A stretch of DNA of 37,325 nt. It comes from Frateuria hangzhouensis. GTDB taxonomy: Bacteria; Pseudomonadota; Gammaproteobacteria; Xanthomonadales; Rhodanobacteraceae. How positions within the stretch are numbered: position 1 is the stretch's first letter; the number at the start of each line of letters is the position of its first letter. A program made the position numbers and the translations under genes. Positions 1-11,552 of this stretch are shown here, piece by piece. Under the pieces are notes generated by a model. That model saw only the letters and a program-made list of their open reading frames with translations, was not told where the DNA came from and made no database searches. The stretch covers positions 1 through 37,325 of the forward strand of contig NZ_JAPMIU010000019.1 in assembly GCF_026410505.1 (NCBI RefSeq), read 5' to 3'.

Positions 1-102
1 GCCGCGGTCATGCGCGGCGGAAAACAACGCGCGCGATTGCCGAACGTGGGCCTGGTGGTCGCCCGACACGCCCTTGCCGTGCTCAAACCGGTCCGTTTTT
101 AA
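1..102 (+). pseudogene. C-terminal tail of an ORF cut by the left edge
   Basis: An open frame enters from the left edge and runs 33 codons to a TAA at 100-102. The peptide is basic and ends in VLKPVRF. It could be the C-terminus of a transposase or other mobile-element protein, given the repeats that follow at once, but I do not recognise the family from so short a piece. Whether it is coding at all cannot be decided inside this window. Confidence 0.25.
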
Positions 103-131
103 AAGGCGATGGTTGATCAGACCATCCTTAG

Positions 132-322
132 GGAGATTGGCTTCGAGATCGATGAGCTATCCACAGCGCCGGTTAACCAACCAAAAGGGATCAGGTTCAC
201 TTACACCAAGCGATAAGTGAACCTGACCCCGTTAGCAACCGACCCCGTTAGCTACCTATTGACCCCAGCGGCGCAATGGTGGCCCCGTTAGTTGCCGTTA
301 ATTCCCTCCGTCCCCTTTATTT
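132..322. repeat. 191-bp direct repeat, copy 1, with REP-like hairpin
   Basis: By eye this is identical to 444-634. It holds a perfect 13-bp inverted repeat (191-203 and 214-226) with a 10-nt loop, then several short motifs of the type GACCCCGTTAG, ending in GTCCCCTTTATTT. Such motifs are typical of REP/RAYT-associated or MITE-like elements. The frame that starts at ATG 109 runs through the left part and stops at the TAA 214-216, giving a 35-residue peptide ending GIRFTYTKR, so this may include the tail of a degraded mobile-element gene. Only the duplication and hairpin are seen directly; the RAYT link is inference. Confidence 0.85.
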
Positions 323-443
323 GTCCCCTTTATTTCCTTTATTTACCTGTCTATCGCTGACGTGTTTTTGGAAGGCCCTAAAAAGGGGTTGAAACTTTAT
401 CTTTTCAACGTGGCTGAATGATGGATATTGGATTTCGAATTAA

Positions 444-634
444 GGAGATTGGCTTCGAGATCGATGAGCTATCCACAGCGCCGGTTAACCAACCAAAAGG
501 GATCAGGTTCACTTACACCAAGCGATAAGTGAACCTGACCCCGTTAGCAACCGACCCCGTTAGCTACCTATTGACCCCAGCGGCGCAATGGTGGCCCCGT
601 TAGTTGCCGTTAATTCCCTCCGTCCCCTTTATTT
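444..634. repeat. 191-bp direct repeat, copy 2, with REP-like hairpin
   Basis: This is the second copy of the element at 132-322, offset by 312 bp. The hairpin arms are at 503-515 and 526-538. A short frame from ATG 418 or 421 reads into the repeat and ends at the same TAA (526-528), so both copies finish with the same 27-residue peptide but have different N-termini. After position 634 the copies diverge, although both continue with further CCCCTTTATTT motifs that reach the 3' end of the neighbouring AraC-type gene. Confidence 0.85.
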
Positions 635-648
635 ACCGTCCCCTTTAT

Positions 649-1641
649 TTATTTACGTTTATTGCCCTTTGGAGATGCGCGCCGCTCCATCCGGTAACGT
701 GCCGGCGGAAGCTCGAATTCACGCTTGAACGCGCGATTGAAAGCCGCCTCGGACTCATAGCCCGCATTGAGTGCGACCTGGAGCACGGTATCGTCCGTCG
801 TCTCGAGCAGCCGCGCACCCAACTGCATGCGGCAGTGCGACACGTAGGCAAGCGGCGCCTCGCCGAGCAGACGCGTAAAGCGCTCCGCAAAGACGGTGCG
901 GGACAATCCCGCTTGCTCGGCCAGCGAGGCGACGGTCCACCCACGCGCAGGCTCGCGATGGATCGCAGCGAGCGCCCGGCTCACCGCCGAATCGCGCGCG
1001 GCCGCCAGCCAGCCGATCCGCCGCGGCGGGAGTTCGGCCATGTAGCGGCGCAATGCCTCGATGAACAGTGCCTCGGCCAGCTTCGCGAGCAAGGCGCCCC
1101 GGCCTGCACCATCCGGTTCGCGCCCCGCTGCGAGGTGGCGGATCGTGTTTTCCAGCCACTCGCCAGAGGGGCCACGACGAATGTTCGTCTTGAACAGCGG
1201 GGGCAACCCTGCAAGGAAGTAGCGGGTGGCTTGGCGTTCGCAGCCGATATAGCCGCAGATGAATTTGGTGAGGCGGCCGCCACCGCCACCACGTTCCGAG
1301 ACGATCTTTCTTTCGAGAATCTTCGGCAGCAGCGAGGACGAGTCGGTCAGTTCGGCTCCGCGGCCGTTCCAAAGCTCGTGAGCATCCCCCATCGGCAGGA
1401 TCGCGATGTCGCCCGGGCGCAGGGGCACGCCGGCCAAGCCGGGAATGCGCGCCGTCGCCTCGCCCTCCACCAGCAGGTGAAACAGGATCAGGTGCTCCGC
1501 CGAGGGCGCCATGAGTCGCGCGCCCGTGCTCGCCGCCGGTGCGGCAAACCCCCACGGAGCGCTCAGTTCCGCGTCGAGAAAGATGGCGCCGGTCAGGCTT
1601 ACGCTGCGCAACGCTTCGGAAAGGGGATCGGGCAGGTTCAT
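649..1641 (-). CDS. AraC-family transcriptional regulator with N-terminal cupin domain
   Basis: A DNA-binding regulator of about 330 residues. The N-terminal half is a cupin-type sensor (GAIFLDAELSAPWGF, then HLILFHLLVEGEA and RPGDIAILP), typical of the AraC-type cupin family. The C-terminal 100 residues carry the two helix-turn-helix motifs (WTVASLAEQAGLSRTVFAERF and VALNAGYESEAAFNRAFKREF). I chose the ATG at 1641; a TTG nine bases upstream is less likely, and no strong ribosome-binding site is visible for either. It is divergent from the SnoaL-like gene at 1729 and probably controls it. Its stop codon lies in the CCCTTTATTT-type repeat motif at the left, so the natural C-terminus may have been altered by the repeat. 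Confidence 0.85.
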   Translation of the reverse strand: MNLPDPLSEALRSVSLTGAIFLDAELSAPWGFAAPAASTGARLMAPSAEHLILFHLLVEGEATARIPGLAGVPLRPGDIAILPMGDAHELWNGRGAELTDSSSLLPKILERKIVSERGGGGGRLTKFICGYIGCERQATRYFLAGLPPLFKTNIRRGPSGEWLENTIRHLAAGREPDGAGRGALLAKLAEALFIEALRRYMAELPPRRIGWLAAARDSAVSRALAAIHREPARGWTVASLAEQAGLSRTVFAERFTRLLGEAPLAYVSHCRMQLGARLLETTDDTVLQVALNAGYESEAAFNRAFKREFELPPARYRMERRASPKGNKRK

Positions 1642-1672
1642 GGAGTGCAAAAGAATCCGGACGCCCGATCAG

Positions 1673-1685
1673 GTGGTCGGACCAC
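1673..1685. promoter_or_regulatory. 13-bp palindrome in the divergent regulator/SnoaL intergenic region
   Basis: GTGGTC-G-GACCAC is a perfect inverted repeat in the 87-bp gap between the divergent AraC-type and SnoaL-like genes. Its position suits an operator for the adjacent regulator, but AraC proteins often bind direct repeats, so this is only a candidate. I see no convincing -35/-10 pair in the gap. Confidence 0.3.
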
Positions 1686-1728
1686 GCGCGACCCATGCTG
1701 CGGCCGTCGAGAACACGGAGACACGGTC

Positions 1729-2499
1729 ATGTCGGATGCTCATGGTTTCACATTCATCGACCCCACGACGACGAAGGCCACGGCAGAGGTCGTGCGGCGT
1801 TTCATTTCCGCGTTCGAGCGCAGGGACGCCACGGCGATCCCCGACCTGGTCGCTGCGGATTGCGTAATGGAGGCGCTCCAACCCGCGCCCAATGGGTTGC
1901 GCGTCGAAGGCTACGACGCCAATGTCGCCTTCTGGCAGGCGATGGTCAAGGACCCGCAGGGTTCATTCGAAGTCGAGGACGTGATCATTTCTGGCGACCG
2001 CGCGATCAATCGTTGGCGCTACCGTTTCGGCACGGGTGCGGAAGACTACCTGCGGGGAGTCACGCTGATCACGGTGCGTGACGGTAAGGTCACGCAAGCG
2101 CTGGGATACGGCAAGACTCCGCAGGTGTCGGATCTGGGCCAGGCAAGCGACACCACCGCCAGCGTCATCCGGCGCTACAACGACGCTTTCCAGAGGCACG
2201 ACCCCGCAGCGCTGGCCGAACTAGTCGCCGAGGACTGCGTGATTGAGAACTCGAACCCTGCCCCGAACGGGTCGCGCCACGTGGGCCGCGAAGAATGTCT
2301 TGCGCTGTGGGGGCGGATCGCAGGAAATCGGGACATCTGGTTCGAGATCGAAGACGTGGCAATCGCCGGCAGCAGCGCGACGATCCAGTGGCGGCTGCGC
2401 TGGGGGGAGAGCGACGAGACGTCGGTGCGTGGGGTCAACCTGATGCAGGTAGAGAACGGCCAGATCGTGAAGGCCCTCGGCTACGTCAAAGGTACCTGA
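1729..2499 (+). CDS. Two-domain SnoaL-like (nuclear transport factor 2 fold) protein
   Basis: A 256-residue protein made of two similar SnoaL-like halves. Each starts with a helix of the type VVRRFISAFERRDATAIPDLVAADCVME or VIRRYNDAFQRHDPAALAELVAEDCVIE. Each then has an APNG..R..G segment and ends in a strand of the type RGVxLxxVxxGxxxxALGY. This internal duplication shows two NTF2-like domains (about residues 15-125 and 135-255). Members act as polyketide cyclases, isomerases or small-molecule binders; the substrate cannot be read here. The start at 1729 follows GGAG by nine bases; the frame is open much further upstream but lies opposite the AraC gene. Probably regulated by the divergent AraC-type gene. 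Confidence 0.85.
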   Translation: MSDAHGFTFIDPTTTKATAEVVRRFISAFERRDATAIPDLVAADCVMEALQPAPNGLRVEGYDANVAFWQAMVKDPQGSFEVEDVIISGDRAINRWRYRFGTGAEDYLRGVTLITVRDGKVTQALGYGKTPQVSDLGQASDTTASVIRRYNDAFQRHDPAALAELVAEDCVIENSNPAPNGSRHVGREECLALWGRIAGNRDIWFEIEDVAIAGSSATIQWRLRWGESDETSVRGVNLMQVENGQIVKALGYVKGT

Positions 2500-2714
2500 G
2501 TGAACCAGCGCATCTGCCCTGCACGCGGCCTCACTGAGAAGAACGACGCTGCAACACTGCATCCAGACCTTACGTTCGGCAGCCGGCGTTTGGGATCCGC
2601 ATTTCCGCCAGATGCCCTTCTGGCCAAAAGCCGTTCGTGGCTTGTCGCCAGGGTGCCGGCCGGGTTTCCACGCCTTTGCCCGCAAAGGCTCCACCGCAAC
2701 GCCAGAGGTTTTAC
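2500..2714. other. Intergenic spacer with no supported gene
   Basis: A 215-bp gap between the SnoaL-like and reductase genes. Short frames exist on both strands, but none has a ribosome-binding site or a recognisable protein. No clear terminator or promoter is visible. Confidence 0.5.
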
Positions 2715-3305
2715 ATGAGAAGTCTCAAGCTTATCGAACACATTTCCCTGGACGGCGTGGTTCAGCACGGCACCGACGAGAACGGTTTTCCCTATGAAGG
2801 ATGGATCGATCCCTATCGGACGCCCCAGGGCCTGAATGCGCTCCTGGCCGCGCAAGGTCACCGGTTCGATCTGCTGCTTGGCCGCCGCACCTACGATATC
2901 TGGTCGGACTCCTGGGGAAAGGCCGCCGGCAGCCCGATGGCCGACGGCATCAATGCGGCAACAAAATATGTTGCCACCCACCATCCGGACGATCTTCGAT
3001 GGGGCCCGTTCGAGGCCGTCGGCCCCGATCTCAGGCAGGATGTGTTGCGCTTGAAAGCGCAGACCGGCCCTGAGCTTGTTGTCTGGGGCAGCTCCACACT
3101 GACATCGACACTGCTCGAATACGGACTCGTGGATGACATCCTGCTGATCGTCTATCCGGTATGGCTGGGCACCGGGAAACGCCTGTTTGCAGAAGGCACG
3201 CCCGCTCACTCCTTCGAGCTCGTCGGCACGCAGGCCATGCCCTCGGGCATCCTCTTCAACACCTACAAGAGCGCCGGACCTTTGAAGGCAAGCGGGGGCG
3301 ACTGA
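2715..3305 (+). CDS. Dihydrofolate reductase-like / RibD C-terminal domain protein
   Basis: A 196-residue protein of the DHFR/RibD-C fold. It starts MRSLKLIEHISLDGVVQ, has the GRRTYDIWSDSW motif (residues about 56-67), the strand-loop LVVWGSSTLTSTLLEYGLVDDILLIVYPVWLGTGKRLF typical of the family's C-terminal half, and ends in an NTYK strand. Such proteins are NADPH-dependent reductases of unknown substrate; they are not the essential FolA enzyme. The ATG at 2715 follows AGAGG with suitable spacing; an upstream in-frame start at 2637 has weaker support. It runs in the same direction as the SnoaL gene, 215 bp downstream, so co-transcription is possible but not shown. Confidence 0.85.
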   Translation: MRSLKLIEHISLDGVVQHGTDENGFPYEGWIDPYRTPQGLNALLAAQGHRFDLLLGRRTYDIWSDSWGKAAGSPMADGINAATKYVATHHPDDLRWGPFEAVGPDLRQDVLRLKAQTGPELVVWGSSTLTSTLLEYGLVDDILLIVYPVWLGTGKRLFAEGTPAHSFELVGTQAMPSGILFNTYKSAGPLKASGGD

Positions 3306-3332
3306 GCGAGCGCCCGGCAAGGTGACGGCGGG

Positions 3333-3359
3333 AATTAATGTGCTGCGACCCCATTAATT
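3333..3359. repeat. REP-like palindrome at the left border of the RT module
   Basis: AATTAATG (3333-3340) and CATTAATT (3352-3359) form an 8-bp stem with an 11-nt loop that contains CGACCC. The right arm overlaps the stop codon of the minus-strand gene ending at 3354. The ACCCCATTAATT wording resembles the ACCCCGTTAG motifs at 222-300, which suggests related repeat families. It may also act as a weak terminator between convergent genes. Confidence 0.6.
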
Positions 3360-4661
3360 GGCCCGGCGTCTCGGCGGCTCGCGATCAAAGTATTCTGGAT
3401 ACGGTAAGCCGAGGGCACGAAGTGTCGGAGCGAAATAGAAAGGCACCTTTGCGGCCAGCTTTGCCGCCTCAGGACATGGCCTCAATGAAGGCTTTGACTC
3501 ATGACCCGCTCGCACTATTTCCCAAGCTTTGCACATGTACGTGCCGGCGCTGTCAAGCAAATTCACGTACAACTCCTCGCCCGTGATCGGCATTTCCTTG
3601 ATAGGGAGATAATGATAGCCACTCATATCCCTTATCCACGCCTCGCCAATTGTTACGATGATGGTCGCTCTGTTAGCAATAACTCTGTCTGCTACATTCC
3701 GCCAAAAGATAAACTTTTCCGCTTGGTCGCTCCAGTGCACGGATATCCCATCTACGCTCTTGAAATCCTTGTCGTAGAGGAAAAGCATTGGAATGTGGTA
3801 TCCGTCGCGCTCAAACGTTTGCTGGGCCATCGCCGCAAGTGCCGCGTGGAGTTTCTCGTTGGAGTCCGCCTGGGACATCCTTTCCCGAAGTTCGTAGATC
3901 GCGCCGCTCATTGAAGCGGGCGGTGTTAAATCGGGGTCGGCGCGAACGCGCTCCATTTTCTGGTAGTAGATTTTGAGGTCTGATAGCTTTACGTAACAGA
4001 CTCGCCGCGTAATTTCACGCGCCGCGTATAGCGCAGTCGGATCTGGAATTGATTGTTCAATTTCCCCTCCAAGATGGAATGCTAGTCCCCGGCAGACGCG
4101 ATAGAGGGTCGTGTAGACGTAACTCAGGGCTTGCAGCAACTCAAGGTTCGGCAACGAGTTGGCGATCCAGACACGTTCTATTTTTATGGCAGACGAGCCG
4201 ATAACGTGAGATGGAAGCTTCTTCTGGGCAATACGAACGAGGCGCTTCGCCCCCGCGTGCAGAAGCTCCTCACGGCCTGTGGCCAGCTTCAAATCTTGCT
4301 CCGCCAAGTATGAGAACAACAGGGTTAACTCAAGAGTGCTATGCAGCTCAAGGTCACCCTCCTTCTCGATGGCATTCCGCGAATCCTTAGCCCACTCCAT
4401 GACCTCGTCCGACGCCCACTCCGCCACAATAGGACGATACCAAGAGTCGAAGTCAGGAATAGAAGGTTTGTTTTTTTGGATAATGAAGGTGACGGTTCGC
4501 GCCGTCTGCAGGAATTGGTTGGTGTTTAGTCGGAAAAGTTCCGGCTCCATGTAAGTGAGATGGCACCGCTCCAGAAGAAGCCAGAGATCACCGAGTCGCC
4601 TTTCCCAAGGTTGCATGTTTGGCTCATCCCTTCTGAGCAGACGGAGTCCGTGGCTCGCCAC
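3354..4661 (-). CDS. Unrecognised 435-residue partner of the reverse transcriptase
   Basis: I do not recognise this family. The GTG start at 4661 has an almost perfect ribosome-binding site (TAAGGAGG, seven bases upstream). An ATG 15 codons in (4616) has AGAAGGGA ten bases upstream and is the alternative. The N-terminal 200 residues look all-helical, with the motif SRNAIEKEGDLE at 94-105. The R-N pair recalls the RNxxxH signature of HEPN-type RNases, but the histidine is absent. A region at about 286-385 (FLYDKDF, W310, WRNVADRVIA, IIVTIGEAW, ELYVNLLDSAG) looks like a compact alpha/beta domain. There is no signal peptide or membrane segment. It starts 59 bp after the RT stop, same strand, and shares its low GC, so the two are probably one operon. 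Its job may be effector or cofactor of the RT; that is inference from position. Confidence 0.8.
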   Translation of the reverse strand: MASHGLRLLRRDEPNMQPWERRLGDLWLLLERCHLTYMEPELFRLNTNQFLQTARTVTFIIQKNKPSIPDFDSWYRPIVAEWASDEVMEWAKDSRNAIEKEGDLELHSTLELTLLFSYLAEQDLKLATGREELLHAGAKRLVRIAQKKLPSHVIGSSAIKIERVWIANSLPNLELLQALSYVYTTLYRVCRGLAFHLGGEIEQSIPDPTALYAAREITRRVCYVKLSDLKIYYQKMERVRADPDLTPPASMSGAIYELRERMSQADSNEKLHAALAAMAQQTFERDGYHIPMLFLYDKDFKSVDGISVHWSDQAEKFIFWRNVADRVIANRATIIVTIGEAWIRDMSGYHYLPIKEMPITGEELYVNLLDSAGTYMCKAWEIVRAGHESKPSLRPCPEAAKLAAKVPFYFAPTLRALGLPYPEYFDREPPRRRAN

Positions 4662-4720
4662 TTGACGGCCTCCTTAGGATACTGAGACGGCGCCCCGACA
4701 TAGGTCAAAGATACACCTAA

Positions 4721-6274
4721 TTACGCCGGTGCTTTCTTTCCAGAAACACTAGCCATTACCCAACTCGCCACCCACCTTTCAAGCGGTGAAACCGAATTCT
4801 GGATCACTAACTTCAGCCAATTGTTTCGTTCGTCGCTAGGCAATACCTTGGACGAGTGAATTATGGCTCGCCGCGCGCGGCTACCGACATTATAAATATT
4901 CGCCTTTTGAGACCGGACCCACGCTAGGTCCTTTGATGTTATTGCGGCGAGTGCCTTGTGTTCCATATTGCTGCCTTGGAACACAAATCCTTTGAGCTTC
5001 GGCACACTAAGAAATCTTGGTTGTGTCGCGATGAAAAATTCCAACCAGTATTTGACCAGGGAACACCTAGCGACGTCGGCAGAGCAAAGAGCACTTACCG
5101 CAGGGCACAGATCCATAGCCAGCGCGTCATCAGTTACCTCCAAGAGATAGATGAATACATCTGGAGTTACTGGCGCGAAAAAATCAAAGTTCTCCAACAG
5201 CATACCGGCTAAATCGTCAACGTCATGACGCCGCGCAGTTCGGATTATGCTACGAGCAATCCCAACGTCTATATGATCCAACTTCAACAGCTTATCGAAG
5301 GCCGCTATTAAGCTCGACGCGACCTCATCCTCCTCGCCAAGGTCGTCGATCTCCGCGTCCCAGTCGAAATCCTCAAAGCTGCCATACGGTCCAAAGGTTT
5401 CCAGCGAATCAAGCAGCTCGTCTTTATCTTCGATGTATTGATTATGTAGATATTTTTCAGTGAAACTCGCCGCTGTTAAAAGCTCAGTTTTATCTGTTGC
5501 CAATGTCAGTCGATGGTTCTCGTATAGGTACAGCGTCAAGGCCTCAAGCGCGCTCTCAAGCTCCCTCGCGGACTCACCGAACATGCGTATATCATCCACA
5601 TATCTCGTGTGGCTCACACCGCATTGTTCGATGAAGCTGTCGACATCCATCATTACAGCCTCAGCCATAATGATGCTAGCCGCGGGACCAACCGGCACGC
5701 CCTGCGACGCTTTATTGTTTAACGTCGTGATGAACGACTCGATCTCTACAGACATGGGTTTTAGCTTGGCGTCTGCAGCTTCTATCGCGTTCTGAAGCCT
5801 ATGCAAATATATTTGATTATAAAAATCTGATATATCGGTAACTAGAGCGTACTTGTGTGCCTTCGAGAGCTGCTCGCTCTTTGTGCGAAAGTCATCCCAC
5901 CCTGAGCCACCGTCGAAGAAGCTCCCGTCGGCAATCTTTATTCGGTACGAGCACGCTATGCCTGCCTCTGGCTTGGGGCGACAAGCTTCTACTGAACCGG
6001 CGACCTCAAATGCGAGCGCTGTGTAAATTAACGCCTCCATGGGGTCCAACTGATGCACAACGCGGTAGCCGCCTTTTGGCTTCAAAACTGTCAGCGCGTG
6101 CGGCAGTGTTAGCTGGAATTTAGAAACGTTCTTAGACAGAAGCTCCTTTTTCACCTCTTCCCAGCTGTGCCACAAGGCTTCGAATTCAAAAGCCTTTGGG
6201 AAAAAATCCGAGTCATAGAACTTCGATATATGCTCTCGAGCAAAATCAATAGCTTGCTCAGATAGAATTGCCAT
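4721..6274 (-). CDS. Reverse transcriptase, UG/Abi/DRT-like (putative antiphage)
   Basis: A 517-residue RNA-directed DNA polymerase. Motifs in order: a pre-catalytic segment RVVHQLDPMEALIYTALAFE (71-90); motif A VTDISDFYNQI with D147; motif B QGVPVGPAAS (191-200); motif C YVDD (225-228); motif D with ATDKT (K262). All three catalytic aspartates (D147, D227, D228) are present, so it should be active. After an acidic stretch (about 300-317) the remaining 200 residues look helical, as in defence RTs whose C-terminal half is a helical repeat. There is no maturase (X) or HNH domain, and no intron is recognisable, so it is not a group II intron protein; no retron msr/msd space is visible. GC is clearly lower than in the neighbours, which supports horizontal transfer. 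The exact DRT/UG class cannot be assigned by eye. Confidence 0.88.
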   Translation of the reverse strand: MAILSEQAIDFAREHISKFYDSDFFPKAFEFEALWHSWEEVKKELLSKNVSKFQLTLPHALTVLKPKGGYRVVHQLDPMEALIYTALAFEVAGSVEACRPKPEAGIACSYRIKIADGSFFDGGSGWDDFRTKSEQLSKAHKYALVTDISDFYNQIYLHRLQNAIEAADAKLKPMSVEIESFITTLNNKASQGVPVGPAASIIMAEAVMMDVDSFIEQCGVSHTRYVDDIRMFGESARELESALEALTLYLYENHRLTLATDKTELLTAASFTEKYLHNQYIEDKDELLDSLETFGPYGSFEDFDWDAEIDDLGEEDEVASSLIAAFDKLLKLDHIDVGIARSIIRTARRHDVDDLAGMLLENFDFFAPVTPDVFIYLLEVTDDALAMDLCPAVSALCSADVARCSLVKYWLEFFIATQPRFLSVPKLKGFVFQGSNMEHKALAAITSKDLAWVRSQKANIYNVGSRARRAIIHSSKVLPSDERNNWLKLVIQNSVSPLERWVASWVMASVSGKKAPA

Positions 6275-6300
6275 GAGACGCGCCCCGTCAAATCGACAGC

Positions 6301-6329
6301 AAAAAGAAAGGCGGCTGATACCGGCCGCC
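6301..6329 (-). terminator. Rho-independent terminator after nrdJb
   Basis: On the minus strand GGCGGC (6329-6324), an 8-nt loop and GCCGCC (6315-6310) are followed by TTTCTTTTT (6309-6301). It lies 26 bp after the nrdJb stop and 27 bp before the reverse-transcriptase start, so it separates the two transcripts. The RT must have its own promoter in a very short space or depend on readthrough; no convincing promoter was found. Confidence 0.8.
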
Positions 6330-6354
6330 TTCTTCTTGCAACTAAATTAACGCC

Positions 6355-7089
6355 TCACCCACACTTCGAATACCCACAATTCAAACAAGTCTGGCACCCA
6401 TCCATCAGCACCAGCGCCTGCGTATTGCACTTGGCGCACAAGGTCGCCCCCGGCGGAAACCCACTGGCATTGCTCTCGCTGCTGGAAGCCACCTCAGCCG
6501 CCTTCTTCCCCGCCGAAGCCGCCTCATACGCCGCCCGCTTCTCGGCAATGAGCTTCTTCTGCGTCTCATCCATCTCCGGATCATGGATGAGCCCGATGTT
6601 CTTCATGTGCTGCTCGATCACCGCGCCAATCTCGGCCACGATGCTCGGCATGTAGACGCCGCCAGCCTTGAAGTACCCACCCCGCGGATCGAACACGGCC
6701 TTCAGCTCCTCGACGATAAACGTCACATCTCCGCCCTTGCGGAACACGGCCGAAAGAATGCGGGTGAGCGCCACGATCCACTGGAAGTGGTCCATGTTCT
6801 TCGAGTTGATGAAGATCTCGAAAGGGCGGCGCTGTTCGTGCGGGGTGCCGGCGTTGAGCACGATGTCGTTGATGGTGACGTACAGCGCGTGCTCGAACAG
6901 CGGCGACTTGATCTTGAAGGTGGAGCCGACGAGCGATTCGGGGCGCTCGACGCTTTCGTGCATCTGGATGATTTCGGCCTGGCGCGGCTCGGCGGCCTTC
7001 TTCTCCGGCGCGGCGGCGGCCGGGGCGGCCTTGTCTTCGGGCTTGACGACCTGGTAGCCCTTGATCTTCTTTTCGATCTTGATCGTCAT
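6355..7089 (-). CDS. nrdJb: NrdJb: C-terminal part of class II ribonucleotide reductase (TSCPD domain)
   Basis: A 244-residue protein corresponding to the C-terminal portion of adenosylcobalamin-dependent RNR. After a basic, Ala/Pro-rich leader (to about residue 40) comes a TSCPD-type domain (about 55-165) with PFEIFINSKNMDHFQWIVALTRILS. The end is a cysteine cluster: C218, C221, C232, C235, C238 and C243, finishing CGYSKCG. In class II enzymes such C-terminal cysteines bind zinc or shuttle reducing equivalents from thioredoxin to the active site. Pseudomonas aeruginosa has the same NrdJa/NrdJb split. The gene lies downstream of nrdJa on the same strand with the H1-like gene between, and ends in a rho-independent terminator. 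Confidence 0.85.
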   Translation of the reverse strand: MTIKIEKKIKGYQVVKPEDKAAPAAAAPEKKAAEPRQAEIIQMHESVERPESLVGSTFKIKSPLFEHALYVTINDIVLNAGTPHEQRRPFEIFINSKNMDHFQWIVALTRILSAVFRKGGDVTFIVEELKAVFDPRGGYFKAGGVYMPSIVAEIGAVIEQHMKNIGLIHDPEMDETQKKLIAEKRAAYEAASAGKKAAEVASSSESNASGFPPGATLCAKCNTQALVLMDGCQTCLNCGYSKCG

Positions 7090-7280
7090 GGGTATGGGTT
7101 CTCTTTGAGCTGGGGCGTCGCTCGGGCGACAGCCGGTGGTGGGCGATACGCGTGTCGCGAAAGGAGAAATCCATCTGGTGCAGCGCGCGGGAGATGGATT
7201 TCCGCTTTGGCGGTGCGGCGGCGCAGGCTCGTGGCAGGCCGTAAGTCCCTGGCGGGAGGCGGTGCACGGCGGGCGGAAGC

Positions 7281-7319
7281 TTGAAGAAGACTCCGGCCCG
7301 GGCAGCGCCCGGGCCGGAG
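7281..7319 (-). terminator. Strong hairpin after the H1-like gene
   Basis: Perfect 13-bp arms (7291-7303 and 7307-7319) with a 3-nt loop, followed on the minus strand by TCTTCTTC. It begins 11 bp after the stop of the H1-like gene. The tail is only moderately T-rich, so it may act as an attenuator or mRNA-stabilising hairpin and not as a full terminator before nrdJb, which begins 190 bp further on. Confidence 0.65.
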
Positions 7320-7329
7320 CCGGTGCTGC

Positions 7330-8082
7330 TTACTTGCGGCGGGCAGCCTTTTTCGGCGCCGCCTTCTTGCTGGCAGTGGACCGCTTGTTCACCGACGCCT
7401 TGGCGACGGTCTTCTTGCTGGCGGACTTCTTCCCTGCCGCCTTCTTCGGAGCGGCCTTCTTCATGGCCGTCTTTTTGCTGCTGGCCTTGCTGGTCGCCTT
7501 CTTGACGGCCTTGGCAGGAGCTTTCTTCACCGCCTTCTTGCTGGCGGCCTTCTTCGGAGCGACCTTCCTGGCGGCAGCCTTCTTCGGTGCAGCTTTCTTG
7601 GCGACGGCCTTCTTCGGTGCGGCCTTCTTGGCCGCAGCCTTCTTCGGTGTGGCCTTCTTGGCAGCGGCCTTCTTCGGCGCGGCCTTCTTGGCAGCAGCCT
7701 TCTTCGGCGCCGCCTTCTTGGCAGCGGCCTTCTTCGGTGCAGCCTTCTTGGCAGCGGCCTTCTTCGACGCGGCCTTCTTGGCAGCAGCCTTCTTCGGCGC
7801 CGCCTTCTTGGCAGCGGCCTTCTTCGACGCGGCCTTCTTGGCAGCAGCCTTCTTCGGCGCCGCCTTCTTGGCAGCGGCCTTCTTCGGCGCCGCCTTCTTG
7901 GCAGCGGCCTTCTTCGGCGCGGCCTTCTTGGCGGCAGCCTTCTTCGGCGCCGCATTCTTCGCCGGAGCCGCCTTCATCGGCGTCTGCGGGGCGGGCGAGC
8001 CCACCGGAGCTTCGGCGGACGGCGGATCGCCGACGGGCGGCATGGAACTGTTCTGCGCTTCGACTTCGGTATCGATGGACAT
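7330..8082 (-). CDS. Histone H1-like / AlgP-like Lys-Ala-Pro-rich protein
   Basis: A 250-residue, extremely basic low-complexity protein. The first 43 residues are acidic and proline-rich. Residues 44-183 are about 14 tandem copies of [10 protein letters not shown] with few changes. The remaining residues keep the KKA/KAS pattern and end KKAARRK. Such proteins (AlgP, bacterial H1/Hc1-like) bind DNA non-specifically and may compact the nucleoid or act as regulators. I chose the ATG at 8082 because it has GGAGG about ten bases upstream; an in-frame start at 8124 would overlap the nrdJa stop region. The gene lies 45 bp downstream of nrdJa and upstream of nrdJb, an unexpected place for a chromatin-like protein. 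Confidence 0.8.
7534..7953 (-). repeat. About 14 x 30-bp in-frame tandem repeat
   Basis: The DNA repeats a 30-bp unit encoding [10 protein letters not shown], with P/S/T changes at the third residue and a few silent differences. The unit number was counted from the protein. Several units in the middle are almost identical, so copy number is likely to vary between strains through slippage or recombination without breaking the frame. Confidence 0.85.
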
Positions 8083-8127
8083 CTGGACTTCCCCTCCGAC
8101 TCTGGTTTTGTATGGGACCCGCAATGG

Positions 8128-11100
8128 CTAGAACTTGCCGTAATAGCCTTCCTTCAGGGCATCGAACAGGTTGGCGGCGGTATGCATTTCGCCGTCATAT
8201 TCCACCTGCTCGTTACCCTTCAGTTCGATAACGCTACCGTCTTCCAATTCGAAGCGGTAGAGGGTGCTTTCCAGGTCGGCTTCCTTGACCAGCACGCCCT
8301 GGAAGGCGGCCGGGTTGAAGCGGAAGGTGGTGCATCCCTTCAGGCCCTGCTTGTAGGCGTAGAAGTAGATGTCCTTGAAGTCTTCGTAGGGGTAGTCGGT
8401 GGGCACGTTGGCGGTCTTGGAGATCGACGAATCGATCCACAGTTGCGAGGCCGCCTGGATGTCCACGTGCTCCTTCGGGCTGATGTCGTCGGCGGCCACG
8501 AAGTACTCGGGCAGCTTGTTGGCCGCCTCGTCGGTGAACGGCAACGCGTTGGCGTTGATGAGGGCGCGGTAGGCGAGCAGCTCGTAGCTGTAGACCTCGA
8601 CCTTTTCCTTGGACTTCTTGCCCTCGCGGATCACGTTGCGCGAGTAGTGGTGGGCGAAGCTGGGCTCGATGCCGTTGGACGCGTTGTTGGCCAGCGACAG
8701 CGAGATCGTGCCGGTGGGCGCGATCGAGCTGTGGTGGGTGAAGCGCGCGCCGCTCTCGGCCAGTTGCTCGACCAGCTTCGGTGCGACCGTGGCGATGCGC
8801 TGCATGTAGCGGCTGTACCTGGCGTGCAGCACGCGGCCGGGGATGGCGTCGCCGACCTTGTAGCCGTCGGTGACCATTTCCGGGCGCTTGCGCAGCATGT
8901 CGCCGGTGACGGTGTAGTCCTTGGCCAGCACCGGCGCGGCGCCCTTTTCCCTGGCCAGGTCCAGTGCGACCTCCCAGCCGGCCACGGCCATCTCGCGCGA
9001 GACGTCCTCGGTGAAGGCGACGGCCGGCTCGGTGCCGTAGCGCATCTTGAGCATGGTCAGGGTGGAACCCAGGCCCAGGAAGCCCATGCCGTGGCGGCGC
9101 TTGCTCATGATCTCGTTGCGCTGCTGCTCCAGCGGCAGGCCGTTGATCTCCACCACGTTGTCGAGCATGCGGGTGAACACCTTGACCACCTCGCGGTATT
9201 CATCCCAGTCGAAGCGGGCCTTGGGGCCGAACGGGTCGCGCACGAAAGTGGTCAGGTTGATCGAGCCGAGCAGGCAGGAGCCGTAGGGCGGCAGCGGCTG
9301 CTCACCACAGTTGTGCGCGTGCAGTCCGTTGCCGTCGAAGGTGTTGATGCCCGGCACCTGCACGTCATAGACATCTTCGGTGCCGTCGGCTTCGAGCGAA
9401 GCGACCGTGGCGACGAAGCGGGTGCGGTTGAGGGTGCGGCGGTAGCCGGCCAGCAGGGCCTTCAGGCGCGCGGCCTTGTCGCTGTCGGCAAAACCGATCA
9501 GCTCGCCGAAGCGGGCCAGCGATTCACCGGCGATGACCAGCTCGTGCTGGGCCTGTGTGACGTAGGCGCGCGAACCGCCGTGGCCATCGGGCAGCACCGA
9601 GCTGCCGGCGACGCGGCGGTCGCGGTAGATGCGCGAGGGGATGCCCAGGCGCAGCAGCATGCGTTGTACCGCTTCCAGGCGCGGCAGGTCCGACTGCGCC
9701 AGGCGCACGGAAACGCCCTTGGCCTGGCTGCCCTGCGCCGAACCGTCGGCATCGAAGAAGCCACGCAGGAAGCCGCGGTAGGCGTCGCTCGAAGTCTGTT
9801 CGAGCGCCGGGGTGATCGCCTTGTCGCCAGACGCCATGCCCAGCTCGAAAGCCAGGTCGCGCAACGAGGCGGACTTCAGGCGGAATTCGTTGCGGCCAGC
9901 CACTTCCGACCAGCCTGCGAAGTCGGCGCGGTGCGGCAGCGTTTGCGCGCAACGCAGCGCCTCGGCCATCAGCGCCTGCGCACCACAGCCGCCCGTGGCG
10001 TTGACGGCAGCGGCCTGCGGCCAGACCGACAGCACGGCCGCTTCCTGCTTGAGCGTGCCGTCGCCGACCAGCAGGCCGAGCAGATAGCCCTGTTCCTCGC
10101 TGAGCGCGCCCGCCCACTGCGCGTTGGCGCGATGGTCGTTGAGCAGCACGCGGTCGCCGGGCTTGAGGTGCTGCGCTTGGCACCACTCGGTGTCCACGCT
10201 CCAGCGGGTGAGTCGCGAGACGCGGCGCACGCGATGGTCGTCGGTGAGGCGCAGCCGGTAGCCTTCCTCGGTCTGCAGCGCCAGCACCGGCTTGGTGGCG
10301 GTACGGAAGAAGCCTTCGGCGCCGGTGGCGTGGTCCTGGCCGTCGACGCGGGCCAGGAAGCCGGTGCCCAGCAGGTCGCTGACCTGGCGCGGGCCTTCGG
10401 CGGTCTGCACCCAGGTGTCGGCAGTGACGCAGGGGTTGGTGGCGCGGATGTGCTCGCACCACCAGTTGTTGTTCATCTCGTTGACCTTGTCGATCAGGAT
10501 GAACCCGGGCTCGGCGTAGTCGTACGTCGAGACCATGATCATGTCCCACAGGTGCCGCGCGCGGATCTGTCCGTAGATCTTGCAGGCGACCAGGCCGTCC
10601 TCGCGGTCGACGTAGTTCTCGTGAGTGGGCCACTCGCGCCAGACGACCTTGCTCGGGTCGTCCAGGTCGATCTCGCCCTGCTCCTTGACGTGGACCGGGA
10701 ACACCAGCGGCCAGTCCTGGTCGTGCTCGACCGCCTGCATGAAGCCGTCGGTGATCAGCAGGGAGAGGTTGAACTGGCGCAGCCGGCCGTCCTCGCGCTT
10801 GGCGCGGATGAATTCCTTGGCGTCCGGATGGGAGATATCGAACGTGCCCATCTGTGCGCCGCGGCGACCGCCGGCGGAGGAGACGGTGAAACACATCTTG
10901 TCGTAGATATCCATGAACGACAGCGGGCCGGAGGTGTAGGCACCGGCGCCGGAAACGTACGCGCCGCGCGGGCGCAGCGTGGAGAATTCATAGCCGATGC
11001 CGCAGCCGGCCTTCAGGGTCAGGCCCGCCTCGTGGACCTTTTCCAGGATGTCGTCCATCGAATCGCGGATGGTGCCCGACACGGTGCAGTTGATCGTGGA

Positions 11101-11400
11101 GGTGGCCGGCTTGTGCTCCAGCGCGCCGGCGTTGGAGGTGATGCGGCCGGCCGGGATCGCACCGCGGCGCAGCGCCCACAGGAAGCGCTCGTACCAGTGC
11201 GCGCGCAGTTCGTCGGTGGTCTCCACGTCGGAGAGGGCGCGCGCGACGCGCTGCCAGGTCTCGTCGACGGTGGCGTCGACCGGCTCGCCCGACTTGGTGC
11301 GCAGGCGGTACTTCTTGTCCCAGATGTCGTAGGAGGCCGGCTGCAGCGGAATGGCTGCGGCATCACGGTTGGCGGCGTGTGGTGCGCGCGCGGTGCTCAT
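8128..11400 (-). CDS. nrdJa: NrdJa: adenosylcobalamin-dependent (class II) ribonucleotide reductase with intein
   Basis: It reduces ribonucleotides to deoxyribonucleotides with a cobalamin-derived radical, independent of oxygen. The precursor is 1090 residues; removing the 374-residue intein leaves 716, the usual size for this subunit. Recognisable RNR segments include STINCTVSGT (first redox cysteine), LKAGCGIGYEFS, AGGRRGAQMGTF, then NP/CGEQPLPPYGSCLLGSINL, MGFLGLGS, and GTISLSLANNASNGIEP. The N-C-E triad of NPCGEQ matches the catalytic N-x-C-x-E of E. coli NrdA, so the cysteine after the intein is the predicted thiyl-radical residue. I chose the ATG at 11400, preceded by GGAGG 11 bases upstream; the frame extends to 11487 without comparable support. 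No separate NrdB-type gene is present, as expected for class II. Confidence 0.93.
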   Translation of the reverse strand: MSTARAPHAANRDAAAIPLQPASYDIWDKKYRLRTKSGEPVDATVDETWQRVARALSDVETTDELRAHWYERFLWALRRGAIPAGRITSNAGALEHKPATSTINCTVSGTIRDSMDDILEKVHEAGLTLKAGCGIGYEFSTLRPRGAYVSGAGAYTSGPLSFMDIYDKMCFTVSSAGGRRGAQMGTFDISHPDAKEFIRAKREDGRLRQFNLSLLITDGFMQAVEHDQDWPLVFPVHVKEQGEIDLDDPSKVVWREWPTHENYVDREDGLVACKIYGQIRARHLWDMIMVSTYDYAEPGFILIDKVNEMNNNWWCEHIRATNPCVTADTWVQTAEGPRQVSDLLGTGFLARVDGQDHATGAEGFFRTATKPVLALQTEEGYRLRLTDDHRVRRVSRLTRWSVDTEWCQAQHLKPGDRVLLNDHRANAQWAGALSEEQGYLLGLLVGDGTLKQEAAVLSVWPQAAAVNATGGCGAQALMAEALRCAQTLPHRADFAGWSEVAGRNEFRLKSASLRDLAFELGMASGDKAITPALEQTSSDAYRGFLRGFFDADGSAQGSQAKGVSVRLAQSDLPRLEAVQRMLLRLGIPSRIYRDRRVAGSSVLPDGHGGSRAYVTQAQHELVIAGESLARFGELIGFADSDKAARLKALLAGYRRTLNRTRFVATVASLEADGTEDVYDVQVPGINTFDGNGLHAHNCGEQPLPPYGSCLLGSINLTTFVRDPFGPKARFDWDEYREVVKVFTRMLDNVVEINGLPLEQQRNEIMSKRRHGMGFLGLGSTLTMLKMRYGTEPAVAFTEDVSREMAVAGWEVALDLAREKGAAPVLAKDYTVTGDMLRKRPEMVTDGYKVGDAIPGRVLHARYSRYMQRIATVAPKLVEQLAESGARFTHHSSIAPTGTISLSLANNASNGIEPSFAHHYSRNVIREGKKSKEKVEVYSYELLAYRALINANALPFTDEAANKLPEYFVAADDISPKEHVDIQAASQLWIDSSISKTANVPTDYPYEDFKDIYFYAYKQGLKGCTTFRFNPAAFQGVLVKEADLESTLYRFELEDGSVIELKGNEQVEYDGEMHTAANLFDALKEGYYGKF
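9310..10431 (-). mobile_element. 374-residue intein with LAGLIDADG homing endonuclease, in NrdJa
   Basis: An in-frame insertion that splits NP from CGEQPL. The splicing blocks are intact: Cys1 in CVTADTWVQT (block A), RLTDDHRV with the TxxH-like histidine at 66 (block B), EDVYDVQVPGINTFDGNG (block F), and the terminal H-N followed by the +1 cysteine (block G). Two dodecapeptide motifs, LLGLLVGDG (117-125) and FLRGFFDADG (221-230), keep their aspartates (D124, D229), so the endonuclease may be active. It occupies precursor residues 324-697. Because the +1 residue is the predicted catalytic cysteine of the reductase, the enzyme cannot work until splicing. Composition is host-like, so the insertion need not be recent. 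Confidence 0.93.
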
Positions 11401-11552
11401 CGGATTGTTGTCCTCCGGCCTTGCGACCCGTCTAGAGTGGTTCCATCGACGCCACGCGACAGCCACGGCGTCCCTTGCGGACGGCACGGCGGCCTGTGCG
11501 TTCTGTTGATCTTTCCGGCTTTACGACGCCCTCCCCCGAGGTTGCCACAGCG

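Follow-up and report, generated by a model that had tools for sequence, protein, structure and literature searches.

An Ea47-like gene beside a UG7-type reverse transcriptase gene in a putative defence hotspot of Frateuria hangzhouensis

The window, by which we mean the whole stretch of DNA that was analysed, comprises 37,325 nucleotides of Frateuria hangzhouensis (contig NZ_JAPMIU010000019.1). On its minus strand, a gene for a UG7-type reverse transcriptase (RT) is followed 59 bp downstream by a gene for an Ea47-like protein (Table 1). A sequence-only reading had described an intact RT with D147 and YVDD at residues 225-228 and, 59 bp after it on the same strand, a 435-residue gene, both of lower GC than their flanks; the reading frames, strand, gap, motif positions and composition were all confirmed. 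The GC content was 49.2% for the RT gene and 53.4% for the Ea47-like gene, compared with 61.0%, 61.6% and 67.0% in three flanking genes, and the third-position GC was 0.55 and 0.61, compared with 0.72-0.90 for flanking genes. By composition, both genes look foreign. The codon-position pattern shows that they evolve as conserved coding genes: the RT gene differs from its nearest relative (L089) at 188, 111 and 329 first, second and third positions across 507 codons, and the Ea47-like gene from its own (L021) at 135, 105 and 264 positions across 416 codons.

Table 1. Features of the locus in the window.
Feature	Position	Strand	Details
Reverse transcriptase, UG7 lineage by profile and tree (PADLOC Drt8)	4721..6274	-	517 aa; ATG start; motif A D147, YVDD 225-228; Drt8 model, tree, alignments
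Ea47-family protein (phage lambda ea47 homologue by sequence)	3354..4661	-	435 aa; GTG start; phrog_19262 and lambda matches
N-terminal domain of the Ea47-like protein	4059..4616	-	186 residues, counted from the internal ATG; bundle of helices into which strands are inserted; RNxIxKxGD
Gap between the RT and Ea47-like genes	4662..4720	-	59 bp; includes the Ea47-like gene's Shine-Dalgarno sequence (AAGGAGG, 4675-4669)
Terminator-like hairpin with T-rich tail, between the TSCPD and RT genes	6297..6332	-	stem 6332-6307, 9 pairs, 6 G-C
Conserved TSCPD-domain gene, edge of the hotspot	6355..7089	-	homology to four genus relatives stops at its stop codon

The GTG start of the Ea47-like gene has a perfect Shine-Dalgarno sequence at a spacing of 7 nt, and the internal ATG at 4616 is closer to the start of the homologues than the GTG is. 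No promoter-like or terminator-like site was found in the 59-bp gap, nor any sigma-70-like or promoter-like site upstream of the RT gene. Beyond the TSCPD gene, positions 7330-8124 (minus strand) encode a protein of Lys/Ala repeats (PKKAAAKKA) that is histone-H1-like by eye and whose DNA is kept in four genus relatives. The minus-strand reading frame at 8128-11487 is ribonucleotide-reductase-like; judged by eye, it seems to be interrupted by an insert resembling an intein, with motifs that include GLLVGDGTL and GFFDADGS and with translated borders close to ATNP|C and HAHN|C. Near the contig start, a 195-bp direct repeat (128-322 and 440-634) has copies that are 99% identical and contain internal palindromes; short pieces resembling it are present in three genus relatives, within the variable region.

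Residues 4-507 of the RT matched the PADLOC Drt8 model (PDLC03783) with E = 3e-140 and 466.8 bits, the next-best model reaching 119.8; by sequence, the protein is a UG7-lineage (Drt8) RT. The sequence-only reading had matched it to no named DRT type, a point that is now superseded, and had taken it for a UG/Abi-type RT of neither the group II nor the retron kind, which held. Both of those assignments scored far below their cut-offs (group II intron, 44.6 bits against 300; retron St85 model, 46.4 bits against 235), as did Drt4 (72.4 bits against 450), and an Rfam scan of window positions 1-8000 matched no family at E ≤ 1. The RT was placed with UG7-type RTs in a tree of 18 rows, made up of 17 UG7-type sequences including that of the window and a single Drt4 outgroup on a long branch, with other UG classes left out. 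The window RT formed a clade with L089, L052 and L054 (support 100/100), joined next by L053 and L055 (98/99); support for L089 as its sister was just 93/94. These nearest relatives share 57% identity (L089, from the same bacterial family and Drt8 by PADLOC) and 47% identity (L052) with it. The catalytic aspartates, D147 of motif A (DISDFY) and D227-D228, were invariant in both RT alignments (six rows each); the full YVDD was invariant in the closer one, and the wider one also contains FVDD and YADD. UG7 RTs are rare, being found in five of 398 genomes of an order sample and four of 398 of a phylum sample.

Distinct UG7-type loci numbered 21 (the window, L015-L019, L052-L060, L088-L091, L149 and L150), and PADLOC classes the window, L017-L019 and L088-L091 among them as Drt8; the others were assigned only from their resemblance to the RT of the window and from a purpose-built profile, A2. 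At L088 and L090, the gene that follows the RT matches the PADLOC model for RTasPDDEXK (PDLC03797). Counting also L057 and L091, detected by a purpose-built profile, an RT-associated PDDEXK gene is present at four of the 19 UG7-type loci scanned (L149 and L150 lying outside the scan); the profile was built from the same four loci that it counts, and no further locus matched. Three of these loci are in the tree, together in a different clade from the window RT. No RTasPDDEXK gene lies beside the window RT, and none was found in its closest relatives either. Because of the Drt8 match, the tree placement and this PDDEXK pattern, the window holds a UG7-lineage RT but no DRT8-plus-PDDEXK system: its RT groups with PADLOC-confirmed Drt8 RTs, whereas its neighbour is an Ea47-like gene. 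The mechanism of DRT8 is given as not established in the available part of one paper (PMC13213688), and the window RT adds a member to this DRT type in a clade where no PDDEXK partner was found. On the viral contig L052 (3964-6013), a UG7-type RT gene is followed by two reading frames of 317 and 367 aa without PADLOC match, possibly another partner set.

The partner, which the sequence-only reading had called unrecognised, can be identified: it matched phrog_19262 with E = 8e-100 and, over residues 17-418 (92%), is 42.8% identical to Ea47 of phage lambda, with which it shares the motif RNxIxKxGD. By this similarity the protein is a homologue of lambda Ea47. Eighteen of 50,697 records in a phage database matched it, 16 of them across 80% or more of its length, and Ea47 is rare in bacterial genomes (three of 398 in the order sample and two of 398 in the phylum sample, its own genome counted). 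The available parts of the literature on lambda yielded no assigned function for Ea47. As far as those parts go, a CRISPRi study rated lambda ea47 non-essential (PMC10695390), and a lambda lysogen with ea47::ampR has been described (PMC11980383). In a yeast two-hybrid screen, Ea47 was paired with N in one vector pair and with U in two; in the same screen U was among the most promiscuous proteins and an A-Ea47 pair failed the retest (PMC3224144).

The motif lies in the N-terminal domain of the protein (R80, N81, I83, K85, G87 and D88, counted from the ATG at 4616). RNxxxK was found in 35 of 37 distinct Ea47 rows, which include lambda copies and two N-domain paralogues; the other two rows are fragments without the motif. 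HEPN ribonucleases carry the catalytic motif R-X4-6-H, and Tha is a prophage HEPN defence that is set off by tail proteins. A HEPN catalytic motif of this kind (RNxxxH) was not seen in any of the 37 rows. The Ea47 N-terminal domain may be HEPN-like, and would then be comparable to HEPN toxins and Tha, with RNxIxK in place of an RNxxxH-type motif; it offers a lead on an old lambda gene.

Many Ea47 homologues come from viral contigs (13 loci in one search), some of them adjoining putative phage structural or packaging genes as judged by eye; several others are chromosomal or plasmid-borne. The lambda gene itself has ea59-ea31 upstream, whose PADLOC matches are PtuA/PDC-M01A and PDC-M01B, and no RT, whereas the window copy lies beside an RT. 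The sequence-only reading had also proposed a search for defence genes near homologues, and within 5 kb of other Ea47 genes we found an AbiL/RloB-like pair, PDC-S06, PDC-S31, GmrSD_N, Mrr_cat (by Pfam only) and Drt4; this check covered 11 hand-picked loci of 33, with seven clear matches, two weak or doubtful (L008, L099) and two without any (L034, L036). The partner links lambda ea47, an uncharacterised gene of the best-studied phage, to defence loci. Seven Ea47 contigs (L025-L031), from assemblies named Leeuwenhoekiella, Pseudomonas, Streptomyces, Chromatium, Neobacillus, Shewanella and Oceanobacillus, were rejected as natural loci since they are 99.98-100% identical to lambda over the aligned stretch, which points to contamination. 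The viral contig L042, 99.2% identical over 1,562 bases, was set aside as a lambda copy. The record of Campylobacter phage CJLB-4 (48,361 bases) contains an Ea47 match identical to that of lambda.

Co-occurrence of the two genes was assessed with profile scans of the retrieved flanks, RTs being sought with profile A2 at E = 1e-5. Distinct Ea47 loci numbered 33: the window, lambda (L010), L006-L009, L021-L024, L032-L034 (L050 being identical in sequence), L035 (the same as L003/L020), L036, L037, L038 (a fragment), L039-L041, L043-L049, L051, L098 (broken into two frames), L099 and L101-L103. Left out were the lambda copies (L025-L031, L042), the paralogues consisting of the N-domain only (L004/L005) and repeats of one place (L092/L097, L094-L096, L100 and copies of the window). 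Among the 21 UG7-type loci, the window alone carries an Ea47 gene, so the co-occurrence suggested in the sequence-only reading was not borne out; among the 33 Ea47 loci, an RT was found at two, the window and L039. In the flanks examined, no Ea47 lies near the closest RT relatives (L089, L052), and no RT near the closest Ea47 relative (L021). The counts and the nearest relatives without partner indicate that the RT-Ea47 pairing is not conserved in this sample, in which UG7 loci are few. The flanks were between about 0.1 kb and about 8-10 kb long, several of them stopping at a contig edge, so a gene farther out would be missed.

The second case, L039, has a Drt4 RT (E = 8e-213) on the same strand, 718 bp downstream of the Ea47 homologue. 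Drt4 (UG15) is also a UG/Abi RT, but it is of a different class from the window RT, and the gap is 718 bp compared with 59 bp in the window. It contains a stretch that by eye resembles the 3' half of a tRNA and is attachment-site-like (ARAGORN found no whole tRNA), so the two genes are probably parts of two different elements. We therefore did not take L039 as confirmation of an RT-Ea47 operon. A dedicated two-gene RT-Ea47 module is not supported by these comparisons.

The surroundings of the pair were compared across the genus and the bacterial family (TSCPD gene at 6355-7089 of the window with the stretch below it; L105-L108 and L115-L148). The TSCPD gene is present in four of five other genomes of the genus, with 91-95% DNA identity, and the fifth (86% complete) has no real match. 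In all four relatives, homology to the window stops at the TSCPD stop codon, as it also does between relatives in the five listed of six pairs, apart from short scattered repeats. The occupants of the slot behind the gene, all on the same strand, differ between the relatives: G060 has genes of the CAP12-TIR (PDC-S35) and FRG (PDC-S15) types; G046 has a RelA_SpoT gene and a Hypoth_Ymh gene whose match is PD-Lambda-3_B (E = 2.8e-14); G005 has a TIR gene with a match to Thoeris ThsB (E = 1e-122); and G031 has a gene of 339 aa without match. Four of the eight slot proteins tested match PADLOC, and PADLOC-type genes occur in three of the four relatives.

The same arrangement extends to the family, where 94 of 97 genomes searched have the TSCPD gene and, among the best 30 loci by score, long downstream homology was seen in just one pair. 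Outside the genus there were 25 loci, of which the 18 with same-strand reading frames were scanned (20 frames; at L131 and L142 the second same-strand frame), the other seven being outside the scan; ten of the 18 match PADLOC at E ≤ 1e-10 and eight do not, as a raw fraction. The matches were to AriAB (two related loci), HEC-06/Orf5, a TIR effector, PDC-M34A, type I and type II methyltransferases, NsnA, capP and an NsnB/AriA/Old-like ATPase; the match at L141 came from the second of two frames. By these comparisons, the 3' end of the TSCPD gene, beside the ribonucleotide-reductase-like gene, is a hypervariable hotspot in the bacterial family, with genes that are often of PADLOC type and in the same orientation. 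This context supports the placement of the window pair in a defence locus and makes the hotspot a practical place for finding more defence genes in the family. The sequence-only reading had proposed a mobile antiphage unit with a dedicated partner: the hotspot and the foreign composition speak for the former, and the occurrence of Ea47 at a single UG7-type locus speaks against the latter. It had also named, as signs against its proposal, homologues that rarely have this partner and never lie in defence islands; we found the rarity, and we did not find the second.

On balance, we lean towards a two-gene defence cassette in the TSCPD hotspot, in which separately mobile and separately acting genes are stacked, probably on one mRNA. 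The RT is an additional member of the UG7 lineage and its partner an additional member of the Ea47 family. The two would have entered the hotspot behind the TSCPD gene as a cassette and would probably be translated from one mRNA. DRT2, DRT3 and DRT9 are ncRNA-dependent DRTs. When phages infect, the UG7 RT most likely synthesises DNA with no need of a dedicated non-coding RNA, since the non-coding sequence flanking the two genes amounts to just 80, 59 and 48 nt; an RNA overlapping the coding sequence would still be compatible with this layout. Either this DNA or its synthesis would halt phage growth, as in the single-gene DRT4. The Ea47-family gene is most likely a defence gene in its own right, separate from the RT and borne by phages and islands; the acting part of its product would be the possibly HEPN-like N-terminal bundle with its conserved RNxIxK motif. 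As the two genes are seldom found together, they were probably parked side by side. Against stacking, an operon whose genes function together would equally well explain the shared strand, the 59-bp gap, the strong Shine-Dalgarno sequence and the lack of an intervening terminator.

Such an operon could be a true two-component UG7 variant, in which the Ea47-like protein serves the RT as effector or cofactor in place of a PDDEXK nuclease. We regard this as a serious but doubtful alternative: it accords with the operon-like layout and with a clade in which no RT-associated PDDEXK gene was found, and Cap17(DRT8) is tabled among systems with purine nucleoside phosphorylase domains in the available part of a review (PMC10952713), so that other effectors beside a DRT8 RT have precedent. 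It conflicts with the absence of Ea47 from all other UG7-type loci, L089 and L052 included, and with the 32 of 33 Ea47 loci that have no UG7 RT in the flanks examined.

We consider it unlikely that the Ea47-like gene came along as a passenger of a prophage, unconnected with the RT and either neutral or acting on the side of the phage. The many homologues on viral contigs, some beside putative structural or packaging genes, and the non-essential rating of lambda ea47 would agree with such a role, but several homologues are chromosomal or plasmid-borne, some of them close to defence-type genes, and superinfection exclusion itself counts as defence. Quite improbable, in our judgement, is the bolder proposal that Ea47, including that of lambda, is a previously unrecognised antiphage protein, HEPN-like with Lys for the catalytic His, which, like Tha, may detect the tail proteins of phages and which here would be the effector of a PDDEXK-less UG7 RT. 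Very improbable indeed is an Ea47 that guards or restrains the RT, as an antitoxin-like protein or sensor with no action on phage, for which only the tight coupling of 59 bp speaks, against 20 of 21 UG7-type loci without Ea47 and 31 of 33 Ea47 loci without an RT in the flanks examined.

Finally, a gene matching PDC-S31 adjoins the second-nearest UG7-type RT gene (L052, 1152-2204) and, independently, an Ea47 homologue (L047, 1871-2839). Its presence beside both types of gene may mean that they draw on one common pool of mobile defence genes.
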